Source of the DNA: Rhodobacterales bacterium RIFCSPHIGHO2_02_FULL_62_130
GTDB lineage: Bacteria > Pseudomonadota > Alphaproteobacteria > Rhodobacterales > Rhodobacteraceae
Length of the DNA stretch: 64,000 bases
NCBI GenBank assembly: GCA_001828855.1
Contig: MHZT01000013.1
Coordinates: 62,001-126,000 of the forward strand
Direction of reading: 5' to 3'
Part shown: positions 53,329 through 64,000 of the stretch, piece after piece
Numbering within the stretch: position 1 is the first letter of the stretch
Layout: each line of letters begins with the position of its first letter
Notes under the pieces: model-generated
Database searches by the model: none
The model's input: the letters and a program-made list of their open reading frames with translations, nothing else
Told to the model about the DNA's origin: nothing
Made by a program: the position numbers and the translations under genes

Positions 53329-54837
53329 ATGATCCGCACGGGCGCAGATTACAAGGACTCGATCCGTGACGGGCGCGAGGTCTATGTGAACGGCGAAAAG
53401 GTGGCCGATGTCACCTTGCACCCGCAGTTCAAGCCCTTGGTCGATATTCGCGCCCGCATCTATGACATGGCGCATGATCCCGCCACGCGTGACGCCATGA
53501 CAGTCACGGACAGCGGCGGGGTCAATGCCATTGCCAACGCGCTGCCCTATTCGCAGGCTGACTGGTGGGCCAAACGCCGCGCCGCCGATCTGGTGATGGA
53601 CACGTTTGGCGGCGTTGTCACCCGTGTGGGTGATGAAACCGTGGGCGAGATGTGGTCGCTGTTTGACGGGGCCGAGGTGCTGTCCGAGATCGATCCGCAA
53701 TTTGCCGCCAATATCGGCCGCCATATCAACCGCGTGCTGACCGAAGACCCGTTCCATATCTCGGCCAATACTGACCCCAAGGGCGACCGCCGCCGCCCGA
53801 TGCAAGACCAAGACCCGGATATGCGCCTGCATGTGGTCAGGGAAACCGATGCCGGGATCATCGTCTGCGGCGCGAAATTCGAAACCGCCGCCGCCTATGC
53901 CAATCAGGCCTATACCAAACCCACGATAGCCAACTGGGGTGACGATGATCTGTCGCCCTATGCCGTGGGCTTTATCTGCGATCTGGGCGCGCGCGGGTTG
54001 AAATTCATCTGCCGCACCGGCTTTGCGGGCCGCGCCTCTGCCGAGGATTACCCGCTGTCGAACCGCTTCGATGAAATCGAGTCGCTGGTGGTGTTCGATA
54101 ATGTGCTGATCCCGTGGGAGAATGTGCTGTTCTACCGCCACACCCGCGCAGCAAGCTATGTCTATGCCACGCTCCACCGCTATTCCGCCTTTGCCTTTAC
54201 GCAGCGCAGCCTGAAACTTGCCGACATGCTGATCGGGGCTGCCCTGTTCAATCTGCGGCAAACCGGATTGGACCACCTGCAAGCCGTGCAGGAAAAGCTG
54301 GCCACCCTTGCCATCTACCGCGAAGGCATCAACGCCCATCTGACTGGGGCGATTGCGCTGGCCGAAAGATCCCCCGCCGGGCTAATGATGCCGAACCAGT
54401 CGTTGCTTTATGCCGGCCGCGTGCTGGCCAGCAGCCAGTTGCCGCAGATGATGCAGCTTGCGCGCGAACTTTGCGGCGGCCAGATCGGCCTGACCCCTGA
54501 TGCCGCCAGCTTTGCCCATCCCGACACCGGGCCGTGGCTGGAGAAATACTATCGGCTGAACGATGAATGGCTGGCCGAGGATCGCCGCAAACTGATGGCC
54601 TTCGCGCGCGATCTGCTGAATTCGGACTACGCCGGACATCGGTTGTCCTTCCAGCTTTTCGCGCAATCGCCGCCCTATGCCCATCTTGCCGCCGTCTATC
54701 AGAATTTCGACTGGGACGGCCCCTTGGCCTTTGTCAAACACGCGGCGGGACTGTCAGACCGCGTGATGGGCAAGGAAACCCTGACACAGCACAACAGCGA
54801 CACCTCGAAATGGTTCGCCACCCAAACCGCCCGATAA
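53329..54837 (+). CDS. 4-hydroxyphenylacetate 3-hydroxylase (HpaB) family flavin monooxygenase
   Basis: A 502-aa FADH2-using monooxygenase of the HpaB/PvcC/4-hydroxybutyryl-CoA-dehydratase fold. Matches: TGADYKDSIRDGREVYVNGEKVADVTLHPQFKPLVD at the N-terminus, MRLHVVRETDAGIIVCGAKFETAAAYANQAYTKPT, LVVFDNVLIPWENVLFYRHT and LARELCGGQIGLTPD. A flavin reductase partner is needed but not seen nearby. It leads an operon with the Rieske oxygenase (9 bp later), RidA and DUF1028 genes, behind LysR box 1. Substrate unknown, probably aromatic or N-containing. Confidence 0.9.
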   Translation: MIRTGADYKDSIRDGREVYVNGEKVADVTLHPQFKPLVDIRARIYDMAHDPATRDAMTVTDSGGVNAIANALPYSQADWWAKRRAADLVMDTFGGVVTRVGDETVGEMWSLFDGAEVLSEIDPQFAANIGRHINRVLTEDPFHISANTDPKGDRRRPMQDQDPDMRLHVVRETDAGIIVCGAKFETAAAYANQAYTKPTIANWGDDDLSPYAVGFICDLGARGLKFICRTGFAGRASAEDYPLSNRFDEIESLVVFDNVLIPWENVLFYRHTRAASYVYATLHRYSAFAFTQRSLKLADMLIGAALFNLRQTGLDHLQAVQEKLATLAIYREGINAHLTGAIALAERSPAGLMMPNQSLLYAGRVLASSQLPQMMQLARELCGGQIGLTPDAASFAHPDTGPWLEKYYRLNDEWLAEDRRKLMAFARDLLNSDYAGHRLSFQLFAQSPPYAHLAAVYQNFDWDGPLAFVKHAAGLSDRVMGKETLTQHNSDTSKWFATQTAR

Positions 54838-54846
54838 GGACACGCC

Positions 54847-55974
54847 ATGACAAAGCACACCACCCCCGCAGCCGAGTTGCACGCCAATGTCTCGGTGCCG
54901 TTCAATCAGGCCCGCGCCATGCCGAAATCGGTCTATACCAGCGCCGAGTTTCTGGAACAGGAACAGCGCCACATCTTCGCGCATGACTGGCTGTGCGCGG
55001 GCCGTGCCGAAACCCTGCCGAACGCGGGCGACTATCTGACCATGAAAATCGCGGGCGAGCCGATTCTGGTGCTGCGTGACCGTGACGGCGAAATCCGCGC
55101 CATGTCCAACGTCTGCCGCCATCGCATGTCGACCCTGCTGGAAGGGCGCGGTACGGTTCGCACCATCACCTGTCCCTATCATGCCTGGGTCTATAATCTT
55201 GACGGCACCCTGCGCGGCGCCCCCGCCATGACGCTGAACGAGGGCTTTTGCAAAGAGCAGATTGCGCTGCCAAAGGTGCGCTGCGAAATCTGGCAGGGCT
55301 GGATCATGGTTACCTTGAACACCGATGCCCCTTCACCGGAAGTAGGGCTGGCAGGGGTGCGCGATCTGATCCCCAATCTCGATATGTCGACCTATACCGA
55401 AACCTACCGCGAGACCTTCCGTTGGGCGACCAACTGGAAAGTGCTGGCCGAGAATTTCATGGAATCCTACCACCTGCCGATGTGCCACGCTGGCACCATC
55501 GGCGGGGCGTCCAAGCTTGAGGAAATGATCTGCCCCGAAGGCACGTCGGCCTTCAACTACCACTGGATCTTGAAGAACGATTCCGTGCCGTTGGCGCTGG
55601 CGCATCCTTCGAACACCACGCTGCAAGGCGATGACCGGCGCAAGACATGGCTGCTTGCGATCTATCCGTCTCTGCTGATCACCCTGACGCCGGGCTATTT
55701 CTGGTATCTGTCGCTGACACCCGACGGTGCGGGTCATGTGAACGTGTTGTTCGGCATGGGCATGTCGGCGGACTGGATTGCAGATCCCGATGCCGCCAGC
55801 CATCTGGCCGCCGTCAAAGCCCTGCTTGACGATGTGAACGTCGAGGATAAAGGCTGCACCGAAAAGGTCTATCGCGGGCTTTTGTCCGCGATGGGCGAAC
55901 CCGGCCCGCTCAGCCACCTTGAACGCCCGAATTTCGAATTCGCGCAATACCTTGCCTCGCGCATCCCCGCCTGA
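54847..55974 (+). CDS. Rieske non-heme iron oxygenase, alpha subunit
   Basis: A 375-aa terminal oxygenase. The Rieske cluster ligands are in NVCRHRMSTLLEG and ITCPYHAWVYNLDG (C-x-H ... C-x2-H). The mononuclear iron site is in NWKVLAENFMESYHLPMCHAGT (His, His), with Glu in place of the bridging Asp of aromatic dioxygenases, as in the choline/carnitine/betaine-demethylating group; the third ligand is a later Asp. No ferredoxin or reductase is adjacent. In this amine-linked regulon N-dealkylation is a fair guess but not shown. Confidence 0.9.
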   Translation: MTKHTTPAAELHANVSVPFNQARAMPKSVYTSAEFLEQEQRHIFAHDWLCAGRAETLPNAGDYLTMKIAGEPILVLRDRDGEIRAMSNVCRHRMSTLLEGRGTVRTITCPYHAWVYNLDGTLRGAPAMTLNEGFCKEQIALPKVRCEIWQGWIMVTLNTDAPSPEVGLAGVRDLIPNLDMSTYTETYRETFRWATNWKVLAENFMESYHLPMCHAGTIGGASKLEEMICPEGTSAFNYHWILKNDSVPLALAHPSNTTLQGDDRRKTWLLAIYPSLLITLTPGYFWYLSLTPDGAGHVNVLFGMGMSADWIADPDAASHLAAVKALLDDVNVEDKGCTEKVYRGLLSAMGEPGPLSHLERPNFEFAQYLASRIPA

Positions 55975-55998
55975 ACCTACAGAAAAGCAGGAAACGAC

Positions 55999-56421
55999 AT
56001 GTCCACCACCATCACCCGCTACCGCAAGTTCAACACCAAGGTCACCTACCCGGAACAGAACCTTGACAACGACCTGTGCCATCTGGTCGCCACGCGCGGC
56101 GGCACCACGCTTTATTTCCGGGGCGCCTGCCCGCAGGATTTGAACACCGCAGAAAACCTTGGCAGCCACGATCCTGTCGCCCAAACCCACAAGGTGATGG
56201 GCAACATCAAGCAATTGATCGAAGAGGCCGGTGGCCGGATGGAGCATCTGGTCAAACTGGTGGTTTACCTGACTGACGTGCGCCACCGCGAACCGGTCTA
56301 CCGCACCATGGGCGAGTACATCAAAGGCGTGCATCCGGTCTGCACCGGCCTGACGGTCGTGGCGCTTGCCCGCCCCGACTGGCTGGTTGAAATCGACGCC
56401 ACCGCTGTGATCCCCGACTAA
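55999..56421 (+). CDS. RidA family protein (enamine/imine deaminase-like)
   Basis: A 140-aa YjgF/YER057c/UK114 protein: TLYFRGACPQDLNTAENLGSHDPVAQTHKVMGNIKQLIEEAGGRMEHLVKLVVYLTDVRHREPVYRTMGEYI, ending in LVEIDATAVIPD. The active-site Arg common in RidA (in C-T-x-L-x-V-x-x-L-A-x-P region: CTGLTVVALARPDWLVEID) is not at its usual place, so it may be a non-archetypal subgroup. It would hydrolyse reactive imines formed by amine oxidation in this regulon. Confidence 0.88.
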   Translation: MSTTITRYRKFNTKVTYPEQNLDNDLCHLVATRGGTTLYFRGACPQDLNTAENLGSHDPVAQTHKVMGNIKQLIEEAGGRMEHLVKLVVYLTDVRHREPVYRTMGEYIKGVHPVCTGLTVVALARPDWLVEIDATAVIPD

Positions 56422-56438
56422 CCCCCGGGGGTTTCACA

Positions 56439-56523
56439 CCCCCGGACCCCCGTGGAGTATTTGGACCAAGATGAAGGCAAAGCCGTGTTCATCTTGGCAA
56501 AAATACTCTCGGGGGTCCGGGGG
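56439..56523. repeat. Imperfect palindromic intergenic element (85 bp)
   Basis: CCCCCGGACCCCCG begins the element and its complement CGGGGGTCCGGGGG ends it. Inside, GAGTATTT pairs with AAATACTC and CCAAGATGAA with TTCATCTTGG, around a short GC centre. Elements of this composition are spread through rhodobacterial genomes in my experience. Between RidA and DUF1028 genes it could act as a bidirectional terminator or mRNA-stability hairpin. Confidence 0.8.
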
Positions 56524-56558
56524 CAGACGGCCCCCGGCGCTTGCCAAAAGGATGCCCT

Positions 56559-57230
56559 ATGACATTTTCGCTTATCGGCCGCTGCACCAAGACCGGCCAG
56601 TTCGGCATGGTGATTTCGTCCTCGTCTCCGGCCGTGGCCGCACGCTGCGCCCATGTGCGTGCAGGGGTGGGGGCGGTGGCCAGCCAGAACATCACGGACC
56701 CCGCTTTGGGGCCGCTGCTGCTGGATCAGCTTGCTACGGGCAAGGCGGCAAATCAGGCGCTTGCGGCACTTACCACGGGCCGGCCTCATATCGAGTACCG
56801 CCAGCTTCTGGTGATTGACGCGGCGGGGCGCACGGCAATCCATTCGGGGGGGCAGGTGCTTGGCATCTGGGGCGAAGCGCAGGGTGTGGACTGTGCGGCA
56901 GGCGGAAATCTGCTGGCAAATGACAGCATTCCTGCGCACATGATCGCGGCCTTTGAATCCGCTACTGGCCATCTTGGCGACCGCCTTATGGCTGCGCTTG
57001 ATGCCGGACTGGCCGCAGGCGGCGAGGCGGGGCCGGTGCATTCGGCAGGTCTGAAAATTGCCGACAAGCTCGACTGGCCGTTGGTTGATCTGCGGATCGA
57101 CTGGTCCGAAAGCCCGATCCGGGATCTTGGCACCGCTTGGCAGGTTTACCGACCGCAAATGGCTGCTTATGTCCAGCGCGCAACCGACCCGACCCAAGCC
57201 CCGTCTTACGGCGTGCCGGGCGACGAATAG
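56559..57230 (+). CDS. DUF1028 family protein
   Basis: A 223-aa Ntn-hydrolase-like DUF1028 protein: TFSLIGRCTKTGQFGMVISSSSPAVAARCAHVRAGVGAVASQNITDPALGPLLLD, RQLLVIDAAGRTAIHSGG, GNLLANDSIPAHMIAAFES. ATG 56559 has AAAAGGA just upstream. Members often sit beside RidA and amine- or amide-degrading genes, and a deamidase/hydrolase role has been supposed. Here it continues the HpaB-Rieske-RidA direction after the palindromic element. Confidence 0.89.
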   Translation: MTFSLIGRCTKTGQFGMVISSSSPAVAARCAHVRAGVGAVASQNITDPALGPLLLDQLATGKAANQALAALTTGRPHIEYRQLLVIDAAGRTAIHSGGQVLGIWGEAQGVDCAAGGNLLANDSIPAHMIAAFESATGHLGDRLMAALDAGLAAGGEAGPVHSAGLKIADKLDWPLVDLRIDWSESPIRDLGTAWQVYRPQMAAYVQRATDPTQAPSYGVPGDE

Positions 57231-57265
57231 CGGATCGAAGTCTAGCCAAGCCGGCGCGGCGCGGG

Positions 57266-57280
57266 TTAGGATCACCCTAA
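57266..57280. promoter_or_regulatory. LysR box 2 (TTAGG-N5-CCTAA)
   Basis: TTAGGATCACCCTAA is 18 bp before the start of the LysR gene, so the regulator probably represses or tunes itself. Confidence 0.8.
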
Positions 57281-57298
57281 GCCAGAACAGGATCGACC

Positions 57299-58252
57299 AT
57301 GCCTTTGCGCTTTACCCTGCGCCATCTGGAATATCTGGTCGCGGTTGGCGAATGCGGATCGATTGCGCTGGCATCCGAACGGGTCAACGTCTCCTCCCCC
57401 TCGATTTCGGCCGCAATCTCGCAGCTTGAGGCCGAATTCGGCCTGCCGCTTTTTGTCCGCAAACACGCGCACGGCCTTTCGTTGACCCAAGGCGGGCGGC
57501 AGTTCATGGAGCAGGCCCGCATCGTTCTGGCACAGGCGGCGAAACTGAACGATCTGGCGAATGACATCACCGGCAAGGTGCGTGGTCCGTTGAATGTTGG
57601 CTGCCTTTTGACCTTCGCCCAGATCATCGTGCCGCAGTTGCGTCGCAGCTTTTCGCAGCACTTCCCCGATGTGGATTTCCGTCAGTTCGAGTGTAATCAG
57701 GCCGAGATTTTCGAAGGCATCCGTGCCGCCAAGCTGGATGTGGCGCTAACTTATGATCTTGATATTCCGTCTGATCTTCGCTTCGTCGGTCTTGTCAGCC
57801 TGCCGCCTTACGCGGTGATGGATGCAGGCCACACGTTGGCCCATCGTGAAAGTGTCTCTGCCGAGGATCTGGCCGAACATCCCATGGTTTTGCTGGATCT
57901 GCCGCTTAGTGCCGATTATTTCCTGTCGTTTTTCACCAGCCTTGGTCTGCGCCCCAAGATCGCCGAGCGGACACGGGATATGGCGGTGATGCGGTCTTTG
58001 GTGGCGAATGGTTTTGGTTACTCCATCGCCAATATCCGCCCGCTGTCCGATGTTGCCCCTGATGGCCGCCGCTTGCGTTTTGTGCCGCTGACGGGACCGG
58101 TGCGGTCGATGCGGATGGGATTGGTTCTGGCGGAAGGTGCGAGTGCATCGCTGACCGTCCGCAGTTTTGTGGATCACTGTCGCGCCGTCATCACGCCGGA
58201 AAACGCCCCCGGCCTGCATTTGCGGCTACCGGGACCGGTGCGTGATTTCTGA
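57299..58252 (+). CDS. LysR family transcriptional regulator
   Basis: A 317-aa LTTR. The winged HTH is LRHLEYLVAVGECGSIALASERVNVSSPSISAAISQLEAEFGLPLFVRKHAHGLSLTQGGRQFMEQA; residues about 95-300 are the co-inducer domain (VGCLLTFAQIIVPQLRRSFSQHFPDVDFRQFECNQAEIFEGIRAAKLDVALTYDLD). It has LysR boxes before itself and before the operons on both sides, so it is the local regulator of the amine/aromatic degradation genes. Confidence 0.93.
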   Translation: MPLRFTLRHLEYLVAVGECGSIALASERVNVSSPSISAAISQLEAEFGLPLFVRKHAHGLSLTQGGRQFMEQARIVLAQAAKLNDLANDITGKVRGPLNVGCLLTFAQIIVPQLRRSFSQHFPDVDFRQFECNQAEIFEGIRAAKLDVALTYDLDIPSDLRFVGLVSLPPYAVMDAGHTLAHRESVSAEDLAEHPMVLLDLPLSADYFLSFFTSLGLRPKIAERTRDMAVMRSLVANGFGYSIANIRPLSDVAPDGRRLRFVPLTGPVRSMRMGLVLAEGASASLTVRSFVDHCRAVITPENAPGLHLRLPGPVRDF

Positions 58253-58257
58253 ATGGC

Positions 58258-58272
58258 TTAGGCATTTCCTAA
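58258..58272. promoter_or_regulatory. LysR box 3 (TTAGG-N5-CCTAA)
   Basis: TTAGGCATTTCCTAA lies 94 bp before the amine-dehydrogenase-like gene. Confidence 0.8.
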
Positions 58273-58365
58273 GTCAAGCTTTCGGAACGCGTCATTTACG
58301 CCAATGCCACCAAGGCGGACAGTTTGGTGCATAAGCCCGCTGCGGGCATCCGGAAGAGGCCTCCT

Positions 58366-60432
58366 TTGCGCGATCCCCGTTACGATATTCTGTTTGAGCC
58401 CCAAGCCATCGGCCCGCTGGTCGCCAAGAACCGCTTTTATCAGGTGCCGCATTGCAACGGCGCGGGCTATCGCGATCCGTCCGCCGCCGCAGCCATGCGC
58501 GGGATCAAGGCCGAGGGCGGCTGGGGAGTGATCTTTACCGAACAGACCGAGATGCACCACACCTCGGAAATCACGCCCTTTATCGAGCTGCGGCTGTGGG
58601 AGGATCAGGACATTCCCGCCCTGCGGAAGATGTCGGATGCGATGAAAACCCACGGCGCGCTGGCGGGGATTCAATTGGCCTATTCCGGCATCAACGGGCC
58701 GAATTTCTACACCAAAGAGGTGCCTTTGGCGGTCTCGGCTGGCCCGATCCGCACCTTTACCAATGATCCGGTTCAGGCCCGCGCCTTGGACAAGACTGAC
58801 ATCAGGAACCTCCGGCGCTGGTTCGTGAATGCGGCAAAGCGGTCAAAGCTGGCAGGGTTCGATCTGATCTGCCTTTACGGAGCGCATGGTTTCGGGATTT
58901 TCCAGCACTTCCTGTCGCGGGCAACGAACCAGCGCGGCGACGAATACGGCGGATCGCTGGAGAACCGGTCGCGTTTCGCGCGCGAGGTGGTGGCCGATAT
59001 GCGCGATGCGGTGGGCGATACGATGGGCATCACCATGCGGGTGTCTTTGGACGAAACCATTGGCGAAATGGGCTTTTCCAACGCCGAGGTCCGCGATTTC
59101 ATCGAGATGAACCGCGATCTGCCCGACCTGTGGGACTTGGCGCATGGCGCGTGGGAGGATTGCTCGGGGCCAAGCCGGTTCAAGGAAGAGGCCGCACAGG
59201 AACAGCTTGTGCGCGGCATCCGCGAGTTGTCGGACAAGCCCGTGGTGGGCGTGGGCCGCTTTACCAGCCCCGACGTGATGGCGCGGATGATCCGCTCTGG
59301 CACGCTGGACTTCATCGGCTGCGCGCGGCCCTCGATTGCCGATCCATTCCTGCCGCAGAAGATCGAGCAGGGCCGGATTGAGGATATCCGCGAATGTATC
59401 GGCTGCAATATCTGCGTGACCGGCGACATGACGCAATCCATCAGCCGCTGCACCCAGAACCCGACCTTCATGGAGGAATGGCGCAAGGGCTGGCATCCGG
59501 AAAAGATGAACGCCAAGGGCGAGTCCCAGTCGGTGCTGGTGGTCGGCGCGGGGCCAGCGGGGCTGGAGGCGGCGCGGGCGCTGTCCTTGCGCGGCTATGA
59601 TGTGGCGCTGGCCGAGGCGGGGACGGCGCTGGGGGGCCGTGTGGCGAAAGAGCGCCTGCTGCCGGGCCTGTCGGCTTGGGGCCGCGTGGCCGATTATCGC
59701 GCCTATCAACTGTCACAGCGCCCGAATGTGCAGACCTATTTCAACAGCGCCCTGTCGGCCGAAGATATTCTGGGGTTTGGATTCCAGAACGTCGCCATTG
59801 CCACGGGCGCGACGTGGCGCGCCGATGGGGTGGCGCGGATGCATGTCACGCCTATTCCCAACAGCGGCATGCCGGTGTTCACGCCGGATGATCTGATGGC
59901 GGGGCGACTGCCTTCGGGCAAGGTCGTGGTGTTCGATGATGACCACTACTACATGGGTGGCGTGCTGGCGGAACTCTGCGCGCAGAAGGGCTGCGATGTG
60001 ACTTTGGTCACGCCTTCGGCCTATGTCTCGGACTGGACGCTGAACACGTTGGAGCAAGGCGCTATCCACCGGCGGCTGGTGGCGGCGGGCGTGAAGATCG
60101 TGTTGAACCAAGGGATTGCGGCGCTTACCTCAAGTGGAGTCTCAACATCCTGCGTTTATACGGGGGCAGCTTCGGAAATTGGCTGCGATGCGGTGGTGAT
60201 GGTCGCCAGCCGCATCTCTAACGACGGGCTATTCCTTGACCTTCAGGCGCGGGCTGCCGATTGGGCCGATGCCGGTATCCGCAGCGTCAAGGTGATTGGT
60301 GACGCCTGCGCGCCGGGGCCGATTGCTTGGGCGACCTATGCCGGCCACCGCTATGCGCGCGAGTTGGACATGCCTGATATCGGCGACGCGCTGCCCTTCC
60401 GGCGCGAAGTGACCGCGCTGGCGGTGGATTGA
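58366..60432 (+). CDS. Trimethylamine/histamine dehydrogenase-family FMN-4Fe4S-ADP flavoprotein
   Basis: A 688-aa enzyme. TTG 58366 behind AGAGG gives the family start RDPRYDILFEPQAIGP; GTG 58327 is an alternative. Cys30 in FYQVPHCNGAG matches the 6-S-cysteinyl-FMN Cys of trimethylamine dehydrogenase; Y171 and H174 (LYGAHGFG) match its Tyr169/His172. The 4Fe4S Cys are 344, 347, 350 and 362. The C-terminal ADP/FAD-binding part starts at VLVVGAGPAGLEAARALSLRGYDV. At the aromatic-bowl positions it has Gln60 and Asp354, as I recall for histamine dehydrogenase, instead of Tyr and Trp. It likely deaminates an amine taken up by the adjacent importer. Confidence 0.88.
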   Translation: MRDPRYDILFEPQAIGPLVAKNRFYQVPHCNGAGYRDPSAAAAMRGIKAEGGWGVIFTEQTEMHHTSEITPFIELRLWEDQDIPALRKMSDAMKTHGALAGIQLAYSGINGPNFYTKEVPLAVSAGPIRTFTNDPVQARALDKTDIRNLRRWFVNAAKRSKLAGFDLICLYGAHGFGIFQHFLSRATNQRGDEYGGSLENRSRFAREVVADMRDAVGDTMGITMRVSLDETIGEMGFSNAEVRDFIEMNRDLPDLWDLAHGAWEDCSGPSRFKEEAAQEQLVRGIRELSDKPVVGVGRFTSPDVMARMIRSGTLDFIGCARPSIADPFLPQKIEQGRIEDIRECIGCNICVTGDMTQSISRCTQNPTFMEEWRKGWHPEKMNAKGESQSVLVVGAGPAGLEAARALSLRGYDVALAEAGTALGGRVAKERLLPGLSAWGRVADYRAYQLSQRPNVQTYFNSALSAEDILGFGFQNVAIATGATWRADGVARMHVTPIPNSGMPVFTPDDLMAGRLPSGKVVVFDDDHYYMGGVLAELCAQKGCDVTLVTPSAYVSDWTLNTLEQGAIHRRLVAAGVKIVLNQGIAALTSSGVSTSCVYTGAASEIGCDAVVMVASRISNDGLFLDLQARAADWADAGIRSVKVIGDACAPGPIAWATYAGHRYARELDMPDIGDALPFRREVTALAVD

Positions 60433-60435
60433 CCC

Positions 60436-61512
60436 ATGACCTCACGCGGCAAGGCGATTGAAGTGGAGGGCGTGACGAAGGATTTCGGCACCTTCCGCGC
60501 GCTGGATGGGGTCAGTTTCGACATCTATGACAACGAGTTTTTCACTCTGCTGGGGCCGTCGGGCTGCGGCAAGACCACGCTGTTGCGGATGCTGGCGGGC
60601 TTTGATGCGCCGACCTCGGGCGCGATCCGCCTGCATGGCAAGCCAATCCTTGACCTGCCACCGCACAAGCGCCGCGTGAACACGGTGTTCCAGTCCTACG
60701 CGCTGTTCCCGCATATGACAGTGGAGCAGAACATCGCCTTCGGGCTGGAGAACCTTGGCTGGCCCAAGGATCGCCGCAGCGCCCGCACCGCGCAGATGTT
60801 GGAGATGGTGCATATGGCGCAATTCGCCCGCCGCCGCCCCGATCAGCTTTCGGGCGGGCAGCGACAGCGGGTGGCACTTGCGCGCGCCTTGGCACCCGAG
60901 CCAGAGGTGCTGTTGCTCGATGAACCCCTCTCCGCGCTGGACCTGAAGCTGCGTCAGGCCATGCGGGACGAGTTGCGCACCCTGCAGCGCCAGACCGGCA
61001 TCACCTTTGTCTTTGTGACCCACGATCAGGAAGAAGCCCTTGATATGTCGGATCGCATCTGCGTGCTGGGGCAGGGCCGCATCCAGCATCTTGGCACCCC
61101 GAACGAGATTTACGAAGACCCTGCGAACCGCTTTGTGGCTGATTTCATCGGGGAAACCAATTTCCTGCCCGTTCAGGTGATCTCGGTCGATGGCGATATG
61201 GCCTCGGTGAAAACCCCGATGGGGCAGGTTGTGACCACCTTGCAGAAAGCAGCGACGGCTGGGCAGGCGGCCACCCTGTCCTTGCGTCCCGAAAAGATCG
61301 GGATGGAGGATCAGGCGGTGGGCGAGATCATGCAGGGTCGCGTTACCAACAAGAACTACATGGGCGGCTATACCCATTACACGGTCGATGTCGGCGGCAC
61401 CGAATTACGGGTGTCAAAACGCAACGCCATCTCGCACAGCCAAAGCTTCGAGATCGGGCGCGAGGTGCGGTTGGGCTTCCGGCACGACTCGGCGCGGGTA
61501 TTGGGCGCATGA
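60436..61512 (+). CDS. Pot-type ABC transporter ATP-binding protein (PotA-like)
   Basis: A 358-aa ATPase: Walker A LLGPSGCGKTTLLRMLAG, Q-loop TVFQSYALFPHMTVEQN, signature LSGGQRQRVALARALAPEPEVLLLDEPLSALDLKLR, switch His in FVTHDQEEALDM. From about residue 240 the TOBE domain begins (FIGETNFLPVQVISVDGD). It starts 3 bp after the dehydrogenase and overlaps the permease by 4 bp, linking uptake to the amine-oxidising enzyme. Confidence 0.93.
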   Translation: MTSRGKAIEVEGVTKDFGTFRALDGVSFDIYDNEFFTLLGPSGCGKTTLLRMLAGFDAPTSGAIRLHGKPILDLPPHKRRVNTVFQSYALFPHMTVEQNIAFGLENLGWPKDRRSARTAQMLEMVHMAQFARRRPDQLSGGQRQRVALARALAPEPEVLLLDEPLSALDLKLRQAMRDELRTLQRQTGITFVFVTHDQEEALDMSDRICVLGQGRIQHLGTPNEIYEDPANRFVADFIGETNFLPVQVISVDGDMASVKTPMGQVVTTLQKAATAGQAATLSLRPEKIGMEDQAVGEIMQGRVTNKNYMGGYTHYTVDVGGTELRVSKRNAISHSQSFEIGREVRLGFRHDSARVLGA

Positions 61513-62384
61513 GAGCGGATTTCCGCATCTGGGGCCTGCTGCCTGCGTGGGTTATCATGGGCTTTACCCTGATCATCCCCATCGGCATCGTCATCGCCGT
61601 GTCCTTCGCCGCGCGCGGGGCTTACGGCGGCTTTGACTGGGCGCTGAGTGGGGAACCTTACGTCCAGATCCTTTATCAGGTCGGCTGGACGGACGAGCTG
61701 GAGTTCAACCCGCAATATCTTTACATCATCGCCCGAACGCTGTGGCTCGCGGCGATAACCACGCTGATCTGCATGGCCGTCAGCCTTCCGGTGGCATATT
61801 ACATCGCCCGCCAACCCCGCGCGGTGAAGGCGGCGCTGGTTTATCTGGTGACGCTGCCCTTCTGGGTGTCGATGATCGTGCGGGTCTATGCCTGGCTGAT
61901 GATCCTTGGCAATGACGGGGTTATCGAAAAGGCACTGGTGGCGACGGGGCTGACCTCGGGCATCGACAGCCTGCTGTTCAACGATGGCGCGATGCTGGTG
62001 GGGATGGTTTACAGCTATCTGCCACTGATGATCCTGCCGGTTTTCGCCTCGGTTGAAAAGCTGGACGGCGCGCTGATCGAGGCCTCGCATGACCTTTACG
62101 CCAACCGCTGGGTTACCTTGCGCCGCGTGATCCTGCCACTGGCTTGGCCGGGCCTGATGGCGGGGGCGATCCTGGTGTTTGTCCCGTGCCTTGGCGCGGT
62201 GCTAGAGCCGATCCTCTTGGGCGGCGGCAAGCAGCTCTTGATGGGCAACCTGATCCAGACCCAGTTCGGCGGCGGGCGCAACTGGCCCTTCGGGGCGGCG
62301 ATTGCGGTGGTGCTGATGGGGCTGGTGATGATCGTGCTGATGGCGCGGGCGTTGCGCGACGGGGGGCGGCATGACGCGGCATGA
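61509..62384 (+). CDS. Pot-type ABC transporter permease (PotB-like)
   Basis: A 291-aa permease: FRIWGLLPAWVIMGFTLIIPIGIVIAVSFAARGAYGGFDWAL at the N-terminus, LPFWVSMIVRVYAWLMILGNDGVIEKAL, EAA loop ALIEASHDLYANRWVTLRRVILPLAWPGLMAG. Coupled by ATGA overlap to PotA-like and by 14 bp to the next permease. Confidence 0.92.
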   Translation: MRADFRIWGLLPAWVIMGFTLIIPIGIVIAVSFAARGAYGGFDWALSGEPYVQILYQVGWTDELEFNPQYLYIIARTLWLAAITTLICMAVSLPVAYYIARQPRAVKAALVYLVTLPFWVSMIVRVYAWLMILGNDGVIEKALVATGLTSGIDSLLFNDGAMLVGMVYSYLPLMILPVFASVEKLDGALIEASHDLYANRWVTLRRVILPLAWPGLMAGAILVFVPCLGAVLEPILLGGGKQLLMGNLIQTQFGGGRNWPFGAAIAVVLMGLVMIVLMARALRDGGRHDAA

Positions 62385-63165
62385 CGTGCGGCATTATCCG
62401 GGGCTTGGGCTGCTGACGGCGGCTTTCTTTGCCTATCTTTACCTGCCCATCGCGGTGGTGGTGTTCTTTTCCTTCAATGAAAACCGGCTGGTCTCTGTCT
62501 GGACCGGCTTTTCGCTGAAATGGTATGACTCGGCGCTGTCCAACCGCGCGCTGCTGGATGCGGTGAAAACCTCGCTGACGCTGGCGGTGATTGCGATGGT
62601 GCTTAGCACGACCGTGGCCCTGATGGCGGCGCTGGTGCTGGTGCGCGCCAAAGGGGTGAAGGGGCGCCGGATTTCCGAAACCGTGGTCAACCTGCCGCTT
62701 TTGCTGCCCGAGATCGTCTCGGCCGTGGCGGTGCTGATCCTGTTCAGCCAGTTGGGCCTGACCAATGGCCTTGCGAAACTGGTGCTGGCCCATACCGCCT
62801 TTTGCATCCCCTTTGCCTTCTTGCCGATCCGCGCCCGCCTGCAAGGTATGGCACCGGATTACGAGGAGGCAGCGCAAGACCTCTATGCGACGCCTTGGGT
62901 CACCTTCCGCCGTGTCACCCTGCCGCTGATCCTGCCGGGGGTGTTTGCGGGGGCGATGCTGGCTTTCGTGATGTCGATGGATGATTTCATCACCTCGAAC
63001 ATGCTCGCTTCGGGCGGGAATACCACGCTGCCCGTCTATATCTTCGGATTGATAAAACAGGGCACAACGCCTGAATTGAATGCAATTTCCACGCTGATCA
63101 TCGTGGCCTCGCTGATTATCGCCACAACGGCCCTTGTGCTGACCTTCCGCCGTCGCATCCCATAA
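62371..63165 (+). CDS. Pot-type ABC transporter permease (PotC-like)
   Basis: A 264-aa permease: FFAYLYLPIAVVVFFSFNENRLVSVWTGFSLKWYDSALSNR, then EAAQDLYATPWVTFRRVTLPLILPGVFAGAMLAFVMSMDDFITSNMLASGGNTTLPVYIFGLIKQGTTPELNA, the typical PotC C-terminal half. Pairs with the preceding permease. Confidence 0.93.
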   Translation: MTRHDVRHYPGLGLLTAAFFAYLYLPIAVVVFFSFNENRLVSVWTGFSLKWYDSALSNRALLDAVKTSLTLAVIAMVLSTTVALMAALVLVRAKGVKGRRISETVVNLPLLLPEIVSAVAVLILFSQLGLTNGLAKLVLAHTAFCIPFAFLPIRARLQGMAPDYEEAAQDLYATPWVTFRRVTLPLILPGVFAGAMLAFVMSMDDFITSNMLASGGNTTLPVYIFGLIKQGTTPELNAISTLIIVASLIIATTALVLTFRRRIP

Positions 63166-63185
63166 CACACCAACAGGAGAGAGAC

Positions 63186-64000
63186 ATGACCCTAAAGACC
63201 ACGCTTCTTGCCAGCGCCGCCCTTCTGGCCCTGTCCACCGCCGCCCGCGCCGAGGGCGAGTTGCACCTTTACATCTGGTCGGATTCCATCGCCCCCGAAC
63301 TGATCACCAAGTTCGAGGCCGAGACCGGCACCAAGGTCACCGTCGATGGCTATAACTCGAACGAGGACCTGCTGACCAAGCTGCAGGCGGGGGCCACGGG
63401 CTATGATCTGGTGATGCCCTCGCAGCACTTTGTCCGCATTATGATCGATCAGGGGCTGCTGGAAGACATTGACGCCGCCAGCCTTGCCGCCTTCCAGCAG
63501 GTCGATCCGAAATGGCGCGGCCAGTGGTGGGATGAGACGAATGACTATTCCATCCCCGTCGCCTACGGCACCGCAGGCTATACCGTGAACCGCGACCAGT
63601 ATAAGGGCGCGGTGGATAGCTGGTCGGTGTTCTTTGAACCCTCTGCCGAGTTGCAAGGCAAGATTGCCCTGCTGTCCTATCCGGATGAAGTGGTGGGCGC
63701 GGCCCAACTTTATCTCGGCGTGCCGTTCTGCTCGGAAAACCCCGACGAGATGAAAAAGGTGCTGGACCTTCTGATGGCGCAAAAGCCATCGGTTGCCGCC
63801 TATACCTCTGATAACATTGAAAACCGCATCGGCGGTGGCGAGGTTGCGGCGCATTTCTGGTGGGATGGTAACTCGATGAAAACCCGCGCCAATGACGGGG
63901 CGAATATCGAATATGCGATGCCGAAAGAGGGGCTTGTGGGCTGGATCGACAGCCTTGCCGTGCCGAAAGGGGCCGCGAATATCGACAACGCTAAGGCCTT
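63186..64000 (+). CDS. Pot-type ABC transporter solute-binding protein (PotD-like), 3' end outside window
   Basis: The first 271 residues of a periplasmic binding protein: signal peptide MTLKTTLLASAALLALSTAARA, then GELHLYIWSDSIAPELITKFEAETGTKVTVDGYNSNEDLLTKLQAGATGYDLVMPSQHFVRIMIDQGLLEDID, DYSIPVAYGTAGYTVNRDQY, and FWWDGNSMKTRANDGANIEYAMPKEGLVGWID. GGAGAGAG precedes ATG 63186. It completes the A-B-C-D importer; acidic and aromatic residues typical of polyamine sites are present but the ligand is not determined. Confidence 0.92.
   Translation, partial: MTLKTTLLASAALLALSTAARAEGELHLYIWSDSIAPELITKFEAETGTKVTVDGYNSNEDLLTKLQAGATGYDLVMPSQHFVRIMIDQGLLEDIDAASLAAFQQVDPKWRGQWWDETNDYSIPVAYGTAGYTVNRDQYKGAVDSWSVFFEPSAELQGKIALLSYPDEVVGAAQLYLGVPFCSENPDEMKKVLDLLMAQKPSVAAYTSDNIENRIGGGEVAAHFWWDGNSMKTRANDGANIEYAMPKEGLVGWIDSLAVPKGAANIDNAKA

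Follow-up and report, generated by a model that had tools for sequence, protein, structure and literature searches.

A probable Rhizobium-type histamine dehydrogenase and its conserved gene neighborhood in a Rhodobacterales genome

Which amine is oxidized by a flavoprotein of the trimethylamine dehydrogenase (TMADH) family whose gene lies directly ahead of the genes for a polyamine-type ATP-binding cassette (ABC) importer? Such an arrangement is found in Rhodobacterales bacterium RIFCSPHIGHO2_02_FULL_62_130, on a 64,000 bp stretch of contig MHZT01000013.1 (positions 62,001 to 126,000; assembly GCA_001828855.1) that we call the window and whose own numbering is used below; all features described lie on its forward strand. 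An initial annotation, made from the letters of the window, proposed that the gene at 58366..60432 encodes an amine dehydrogenase resembling histamine dehydrogenase (HDH) at two active-site positions, and that a cation such as agmatine or a polyamine is imported and oxidatively deaminated. Our comparisons uphold the HDH-like amine dehydrogenase and move the probable substrate from agmatine or polyamine to histamine.

Family and active site of the dehydrogenase

The gene, hdh, encodes a protein of 688 amino acids whose nearest solved relative is the HDH of Rhizobium sp. 4-9 (Rsp HDH; PDB 6DE6, UniProt Q60I59). The two are 81.3% identical by blastp over 690 columns, and the corresponding figures are 56.7% for the N. 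simplex HDH (3K30), 47.7% for 6L6J and 41.7% for TMADH; in a multiple alignment they become 81.5%, 57.4%, 48.2% and 43.3%, and in the search of solved structures the four score 1295, 844, 663 and 514 bits, respectively. In a FastTree phylogeny of 46 sequences, for which we chose TMADH as the root, the window protein shares a clade with both solved HDHs (support 1.0), with 6DE6 nearer and N. simplex HDH deeper. The earlier assignment to HDH and not to TMADH is thus borne out, and deamination of a primary amine would be expected of such a protein.

Three sets of homologs were used for comparison. The ortholog set holds the best 80 of at least 578 confirmed matches (at least 77% identity, mostly Rhodobacterales by title), with loci from named genomes that reach as far as 10 kb from hdh in both directions; the paralog set holds 20 TMADH-family members that are 40–57% identical to the window protein, with 8 kb on each side where the contig allowed and some stretches shorter; and a third set holds eight further relatives of 66–78% identity. 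In the alignment Cys30, the predicted site of the 6-S-cysteinyl flavin mononucleotide (FMN), is present in the window protein and is Cys in 79 of the 80 orthologs, the remaining row being truncated, and the 4Fe4S cysteines Cys344, Cys347, Cys350 and Cys362 are present here and in the four solved relatives. These residues, along with Gln60, Tyr171, His174 and Asp354, all lie where the initial annotation had put them.

Published work on Rsp HDH lists Gln60, Ile69, Phe72, Glu74, Asn110, Tyr171, His174, Phe176, Trp263, Asp265 and Asp354 as its active site (PMC10180351). The window protein is identical to 6DE6 at 11 of these 11 residues. Nine of them (Gln60, Ile69, Glu74, Asn110, Tyr171, His174, Phe176, Trp263 and Asp354) are invariant in 80/80 orthologs, while Phe72 is found in 78 (Tyr in two) and Asp265 in 72 (Glu in eight). 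The pair Gln60 (codon 58543..58545) and Asp354 (codon 59425..59427) had been named as HDH residues, and the N. simplex counterparts are indeed Gln65 and Asp358 (PMC10180351). Taken alone, the pair does not point to histamine, and we rejected it as a histamine signature, since non-HDH paralogs have Asp354 in 17 of 20 cases and Gln60 in five of 20, all five from the 53–57% group. None of the 20 paralogs has Ile69, Asn110 or Phe176, and four have Phe72. A second HDH-like protein (58%) is encoded near hdh in Xanthobacter (L102 3558-5675), and it keeps Gln60 and Asp354 and has Lys at the place of His174.

We take the aromatic bowl of TMADH to be Tyr60/Trp264/Trp355 and its triad aspartate to be Asp267. 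The window protein has Gln60, Trp263 and Asp354 in the place of that bowl; position 354 sits at a one-residue indel relative to TMADH (CISRWEI against CVTG-DMT), and the equivalence of Asp354 with Trp355 therefore comes from published structural work and not from this alignment. The triad aspartate stands at Trp+3 in TMADH and N. simplex HDH, and at Trp+3 the window protein has Cys266 (codon 59161..59163). This cysteine is shared by 6DE6, 80/80 orthologs and 8/8 further relatives, in an alignment that is gapless against N. simplex HDH, and the same place is Asp in TMADH, N. simplex HDH, 6L6J and 18 of the 20 paralogs and Glu in the other two. Trimethylamine or dimethylamine as the substrate, which the common family, the common cofactor residues and the 41.7% identity to TMADH might suggest, was rejected on the separate clade (support 1.0) and on the active site, with Gln for TMADH Tyr60 and Cys266 at the triad aspartate; we regard it as almost certainly wrong.

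How the triad is built in the Rhizobium-type enzymes is a separate matter. Asp265 has been named as the triad member of Rsp HDH (PMC10180351), and five relatives of 66–70% identity (L155-L159) carry Gln, Ala, Asn or Ser at position 265 and keep Cys266, so that Asp265 fits poorly as a general triad residue. On these alignments either the aspartate would have moved by one residue or Cys266 would do the work; an Asp265 library of Rsp HDH gave no active substituted clone, which counts against Cys266 doing so, and the N. simplex residues at the triad site have been mutated by others, so the difference is partly known (both PMC10180351).

Because of the 81.3% identity to 6DE6, the HDH active site and the recurring neighbors described below, we consider it very probable that the window gene encodes a Rhizobium-type HDH (EC 1.4.9.1 by homology) with histamine as its main substrate. 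Weighing against this is the side activity of Rsp HDH, which acts on agmatine and 1,3-diaminopropane at 10–13% of the histamine rate; N. simplex HDH also has agmatine side activity (PMC10180351). A general diamine or agmatine dehydrogenase, served by an importer of agmatine or polyamines, could be built on these activities, and agmatine or polyamine had been the earlier best guess. It is countered by an active site like that of Rsp HDH, whose agmatine rate is about 10% of that with histamine (PMC10180351), and by neighbors that fit imidazoleacetate breakdown, including a HinK-like regulator. The neighbors and the identity to Rsp HDH together lower agmatine or polyamine as the main substrate to a quite unlikely alternative, to which the importer is also relevant (below).

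The reading frame of hdh starts at a TTG codon (58366) and stops at 60430-60432. The 6DE6 alignment from the PDB sequence search begins at the same residue as the product of this start, and a probable Shine-Dalgarno sequence, GGAAGAGG (58352..58359), lies six bases ahead of it; the TTG at 58324, farther upstream, is a possible alternative.

Conserved neighbors of hdh and the predicted pathway

The gene order around hdh in the window is SDR (short-chain dehydrogenase/reductase), HpaB, Rieske, RidA, DUF1028, LysR, HDH and PotABCD. The RidA-family gene (55999..56421; PF01042, 64.5 bits against a cut-off of 27.3), the DUF1028 gene (56559..57230; PF06267, 218 bits) and the LysR regulator gene (57299..58252) belong to a set that recurs at other hdh genes. 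When neighbors were counted by set identity limits, the 80 ortholog loci contained a flavin adenine dinucleotide (FAD) monooxygenase in 72 cases, a LysR regulator of the window type in 71, RidA (at least 50% identical) in 69, DUF1028 in 69, an M20 deacylase in 54, an aldehyde dehydrogenase in 46 and PotA in 45. The 65 loci of at least 20 kb gave 60, 60, 58, 57, 45, 38 and 40 in the same order. By comparison, the monooxygenase, RidA, DUF1028 and this LysR were found in none of the 20 paralog loci at E 1e-15. Of the eight relatives of 66–78% identity, five have all or part of the module, and the other three (L155, L158 and L160) lack it within the stretch. The four Shinella loci (L062, L080, L106 and L108), whose HDHs are 93–95% identical to Rsp HDH, have the monooxygenase, LysR, aldehyde dehydrogenase, hdh, a type-1 importer (defined below), RidA, DUF1028 and M20 genes clustered, and an annotated plasmid (L134) likewise carries a fuller HDH cluster.

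Co-occurrence across genomes points the same way. In a drawn sample of 292 genomes of the order (the named relatives are Rhodobacterales) an HDH ortholog of at least 67% identity is found in 40, which span 29 genera; one genome (G251) that has only an HDH fragment with an internal stop was excluded, and it is not among the monooxygenase genomes either. The monooxygenase (E 1e-120 or better) is present in all 40 HDH genomes and in 36 of the 252 others (Fisher P 2e-28, uncorrected for relatedness). It lies within 10 kb of hdh in 33 of the 40 and on a different contig in seven, the window's genome included. Its presence without HDH in 36 genomes would fit a free-standing imidazoleacetate module.

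In the hin pathway of Pseudomonas, HinC and HinD convert histamine into imidazoleacetate, and HinF, HinL, HinH and HinG carry it on to aspartate; the APC permease of the system is HinA, and its LysR regulator, HinK, responds to imidazoleacetate (PMC8231116, PMC6467879). The best PDB sequence matches of the window LysR are 6m5f (E 6e-57) and 3fzv (E 6.8e-57), and 6m5f, which is titled HinK of P. aeruginosa, is identical at 105 of 293 aligned residues. It is also the first fold match of the LysR model, whose predicted template modeling score (pTM) of 0.64 leaves the domain arrangement uncertain; a HinK structure is thus the closest solved relative of this regulator by both sequence and fold. Plasmids of Mycolicibacterium and Streptomyces carry monooxygenase, RidA, DUF1028 and M20 genes in a row. 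These stretches have no annotated HDH, and the row has the product order of hinFLHG (PMC8231116, PMC6467879). From order and product names we infer that HinH belongs to the DUF1028 family and HinG to the M20 enzymes; RidA is HinL-like by product type. Variant modules lie on Rhizobium, Neorhizobium, Acetobacter and Paraburkholderia plasmids. One Klebsiella plasmid has a 59% identical monooxygenase with RidA and DUF1028 not adjoining, and the monooxygenase gene alone is therefore no marker of the module.

These neighbors (HinK-like LysR, RidA, DUF1028 and FAD monooxygenase) fit a catabolic function for imidazoleacetate or histamine, and the following route is suggested by analogy with Pseudomonas. 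Histamine would enter through the downstream Pot-type ABC importer, and the 6-S-cysteinyl-FMN of HDH would accept two electrons from the amine carbon; the resulting imine would be hydrolyzed to imidazole acetaldehyde and ammonia, and the electrons would pass from FMN via the [4Fe-4S] cluster to an acceptor. An aldehyde dehydrogenase would form imidazole-4-acetate, which the HinF-like FAD monooxygenase, RidA, DUF1028 protein and M20 deacylase would take to aspartate, and the LysR protein would probably sense imidazoleacetate as HinK does. By prediction, then, the route resembles the hin route with HDH in place of HinC and an ABC importer in place of HinA.

Several points qualify this scheme or weigh against it. 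The 80 loci were chosen as the best among at least 578 and by title come mostly from Rhodobacterales, so their counts are not independent; the label "monooxygenase" is based solely on Pfam hits and weak PDB matches; and the likeness to HinF, HinL, HinH and HinG is drawn from product type and order. The solved relatives of RidA and DUF1028 reveal no function, the sole DUF1028 relative found, 2imh, being a hypothetical protein. According to PMC8231116, the original study found the hin genes absent from Gram-positive genomes, which speaks against reading the actinobacterial rows as modules of this kind; hin genes are reported in Brevibacterium (PMC6467879), which favors that reading. In the window itself and the 14 kb behind it, no monooxygenase, aldehyde dehydrogenase or M20 gene of the module was found. 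The window's genome has one monooxygenase (65% identity) on another contig (G000:C48), with no recognizable module neighbors among reading frames judged by eye, and its best genome-wide matches to the aldehyde dehydrogenase and the M20 enzyme are 50% and 52% identical. The pathway in this organism may be complete but scattered, and it is here that the pathway proposal is weakest. With these points taken into account, we judge the histamine-to-aspartate pathway to be probable from the sequence comparisons.

The two genes ahead of ridA recur at fewer of the loci. They encode an HpaB-type monooxygenase (53329..54837; PF11794 and PF03241; 8/80 HDH loci) and a Rieske oxygenase (54847..55974; PF00355 and PF00848; 13/80 HDH loci), and are possible accessory genes. 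The idea that they substitute for the FAD monooxygenase is unsupported, because that monooxygenase accompanies the HpaB gene at seven of eight loci and the Rieske gene at 12 of 13, and the window's genome has one elsewhere. If the Rieske protein were an N-demethylase, the true substrate might be a methylated or other ring amine such as N-methylhistamine. Its gene ends 24 bp ahead of ridA and recurs in those 13 loci, and the top NCBIfam model for the protein is glycine betaine monooxygenase (far below the cut-off); set against this, 67 of the 80 loci have no Rieske gene within the stretch examined, and we think this substrate very unlikely.

Some further observations concern the neighborhood. 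At one locus (L039 4882-6045) a single open reading frame encodes a fusion of two domains, flavin reductase (PF01613) and LysR ligand-binding (PF03466), and it stands between the Rieske gene and ridA, the common monooxygenase place in other HDH clusters. A pyridoxal phosphate-dependent decarboxylase gene (PF00282) lies directly behind hdh in five of the 80 loci (L075, L085, L093, L096 and L101), and its product might generate the amine that HDH removes; the near solved relatives of the L085 decarboxylase include diaminobutyrate and dihydroxyphenylalanine (DOPA) decarboxylases, with histidine decarboxylase ranking lower. An inverted repeat occupies 56455-56508, between ridA and the DUF1028 gene, and within the window its 21-base motif occurs only as these two arms (chance mean 0.11). 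A promoter scan of 55900-64000 returned no sigma-70-like sites, and shuffled sequences gave 2.4.

The downstream Pot-type importer

The importer genes follow hdh closely. The gene for the PotA-type ATPase (60436..61512) begins 3 bp after the hdh stop, as the initial annotation had it (60432 to 60436), and those for the PotB-type permease (61509..62384) and the PotC-type permease (62371..63165) overlap the preceding gene by 4 and 14 bp, respectively. The range originally quoted for the system, 58366-63165, ends at potC and leaves out potD, the gene for the periplasmic binding protein. This PotD/PotF-type gene (63186..64000, on to 64211 beyond the window) was completed from the same contig (L008 5187-6212), and its product has 341 amino acids. 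The ATPase reaches the subfamily level (TIGR01187, 371.8 bits against a cut-off of 355.6), and all four components score below the equivalog cut-offs: PotA 385.6 against 482, PotB (NF007044) 194 against 348, PotC (NF007047) 208 against 326 and PotD 167 against 582. Further PotB, PotC and PotD homologs, 31–38% identical to those behind hdh, are encoded at 15-2194 of the window.

The binding-protein model (predicted local distance difference test, pLDDT, 94) has polyamine receptors or their relatives as its first 30 fold matches. Its pocket was compared by alignment to SpuE (3ttl) and PotD, with PotF numbering transferred via SpuE and PotF itself not aligned; the roles of the PotF residues are those described in PMC8666671. 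The places of PotF Trp37, Ser38, Asp39, Ser85, Glu185 and Asp278 are kept, and the other two aromatic-box positions have Trp. The protein differs by Asn at PotF position 247, Tyr at 182 and His at 87, so that at the proximal amine site Asp33 (PotF Asp39) is retained and Asn229 replaces PotF Asp247. Both aspects bear on the agmatine or polyamine alternative: polyamine receptors as nearest folds, the aromatic box and the retained positions of Asp39, Glu185 and Asp278 speak for it, and Asn229 in place of the amine-binding Asp247 speaks against it. The pocket differences suggest a changed ligand, and only suggest it, because position 247 varies among the 17 type-1 binding proteins (Asn in nine, Asp in four, Glu in three and Ser in one) and is Ser in E. 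coli PotD. The four receptors with Asp at 247 are the Shinella proteins that accompany the HDHs nearest to the proven enzyme, which counts against reading the altered site as that of a histamine receptor.

Gene linkage is also two-sided. Importers closely related to this one (type 1, PotA at least 62% identical) occur in 15 HDH loci, and at 14 of these they follow hdh at a distance of no more than 80 bases; a second Pot-type importer (type 2, PotA 48–62%) occurs in 30. However, 13 of the 20 paralogs also have a PotA homolog of at least 43% identity at a distance of up to 8 kb. A neighboring Pot-type importer is thus common across the wider family, and its adjacency, which had been taken as a pointer to the ligand, says little by itself. 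Two more points weigh against histamine as the ligand: 25 of the 65 loci of at least 20 kb have no PotA of at least 48% identity (some of them have other Pot genes, in part at the edge of the stretch), and the binding protein encoded next to the histamine genes of P. aeruginosa has γ-aminobutyric acid (GABA) as its ligand and not histamine (PMC8231116).

The enzyme could therefore be HDH, as we propose, and the importer carry something else, such as GABA, imidazoleacetate or a polyamine. This view, which is compatible with our assignment of the enzyme, is helped by the importers near the 13 paralogs and by the P. aeruginosa GABA receptor; the recurrence of two importer types with HDH and the 3 bp spacing of potA here argue against it, and we hold it as a tentative possibility. 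That histamine is the ligand of the downstream Pot-type importer is, on present comparisons, about an even proposition. The specific version, equally balanced in our estimation, is that the potABCD-like genes form a dedicated histamine importer whose receptor would re-use the polyamine aromatic box, with Asn229 proximal and His81 and Tyr165 distal. Among the papers listed by the one literature search aimed at it, none reported an ABC importer for histamine.

Relation to known enzymes and pathways

The enzyme itself is known, and the HDH-based cluster with an ABC importer is apparently the newer and less described part. In the literature found, HDH figures mainly as a biosensor enzyme; among the papers listed by the searches, with most subscription papers outside reach, none described the genomic setting of HDH or this cluster, and DUF1028 was named in no paper of the collection searched. 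If the proposal is correct, 40 of the 292 sampled Rhodobacterales genomes could import and degrade histamine in a manner that differs from Pseudomonas in the first enzyme and the transporter, and DUF1028 would gain a testable place in imidazoleacetate breakdown. HDH together with the monooxygenase, RidA, DUF1028 and a HinK-like LysR is offered as an annotation rule.

Compared with Rsp HDH, the window protein differs by about 18% in sequence and is equal at 15 of 16 compared active-site positions, the exception being Thr262, which is Ala here. The equivalents of N. simplex HDH Gln65, Ile74, Phe77, Glu79, Asn115, Trp267 and Asp358 are kept, while Phe131 replaces an Asp, Phe176 a Tyr, and Asp265-Cys266 its Gly269-Asp270. 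The 6-hydroxypseudooxynicotine oxidase Pno of Agrobacterium S33 shares the family, the FMN and the 4Fe4S cluster; it is 48% and 46% identical to the two HDHs (PMC5500553) and, though absent from our tree, we infer that it falls outside the HDH clade. The importer has the architecture of the PotABCD and PotFGHI polyamine importers and a matching binding-protein fold, and departs from them in its scores below the Pot equivalog cut-offs and in its pocket at PotF positions 247, 182 and 87. Finally, the hin systems of Pseudomonas putida U and P. aeruginosa PAO1 have the HinK-like LysR in common with the window by sequence, and are alike in RidA, FAD monooxygenase, aldehyde dehydrogenase, M20 and DUF1028 by product type or order, as seen in relatives of the window. 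They differ in that the first step there is the aminotransferase HinC and here HDH, that the APC permease HinA stands where an ABC importer is predicted here, and that HinFLHG and HinCDA lie apart in Pseudomonas, whereas many relatives of the window have one compact cluster.

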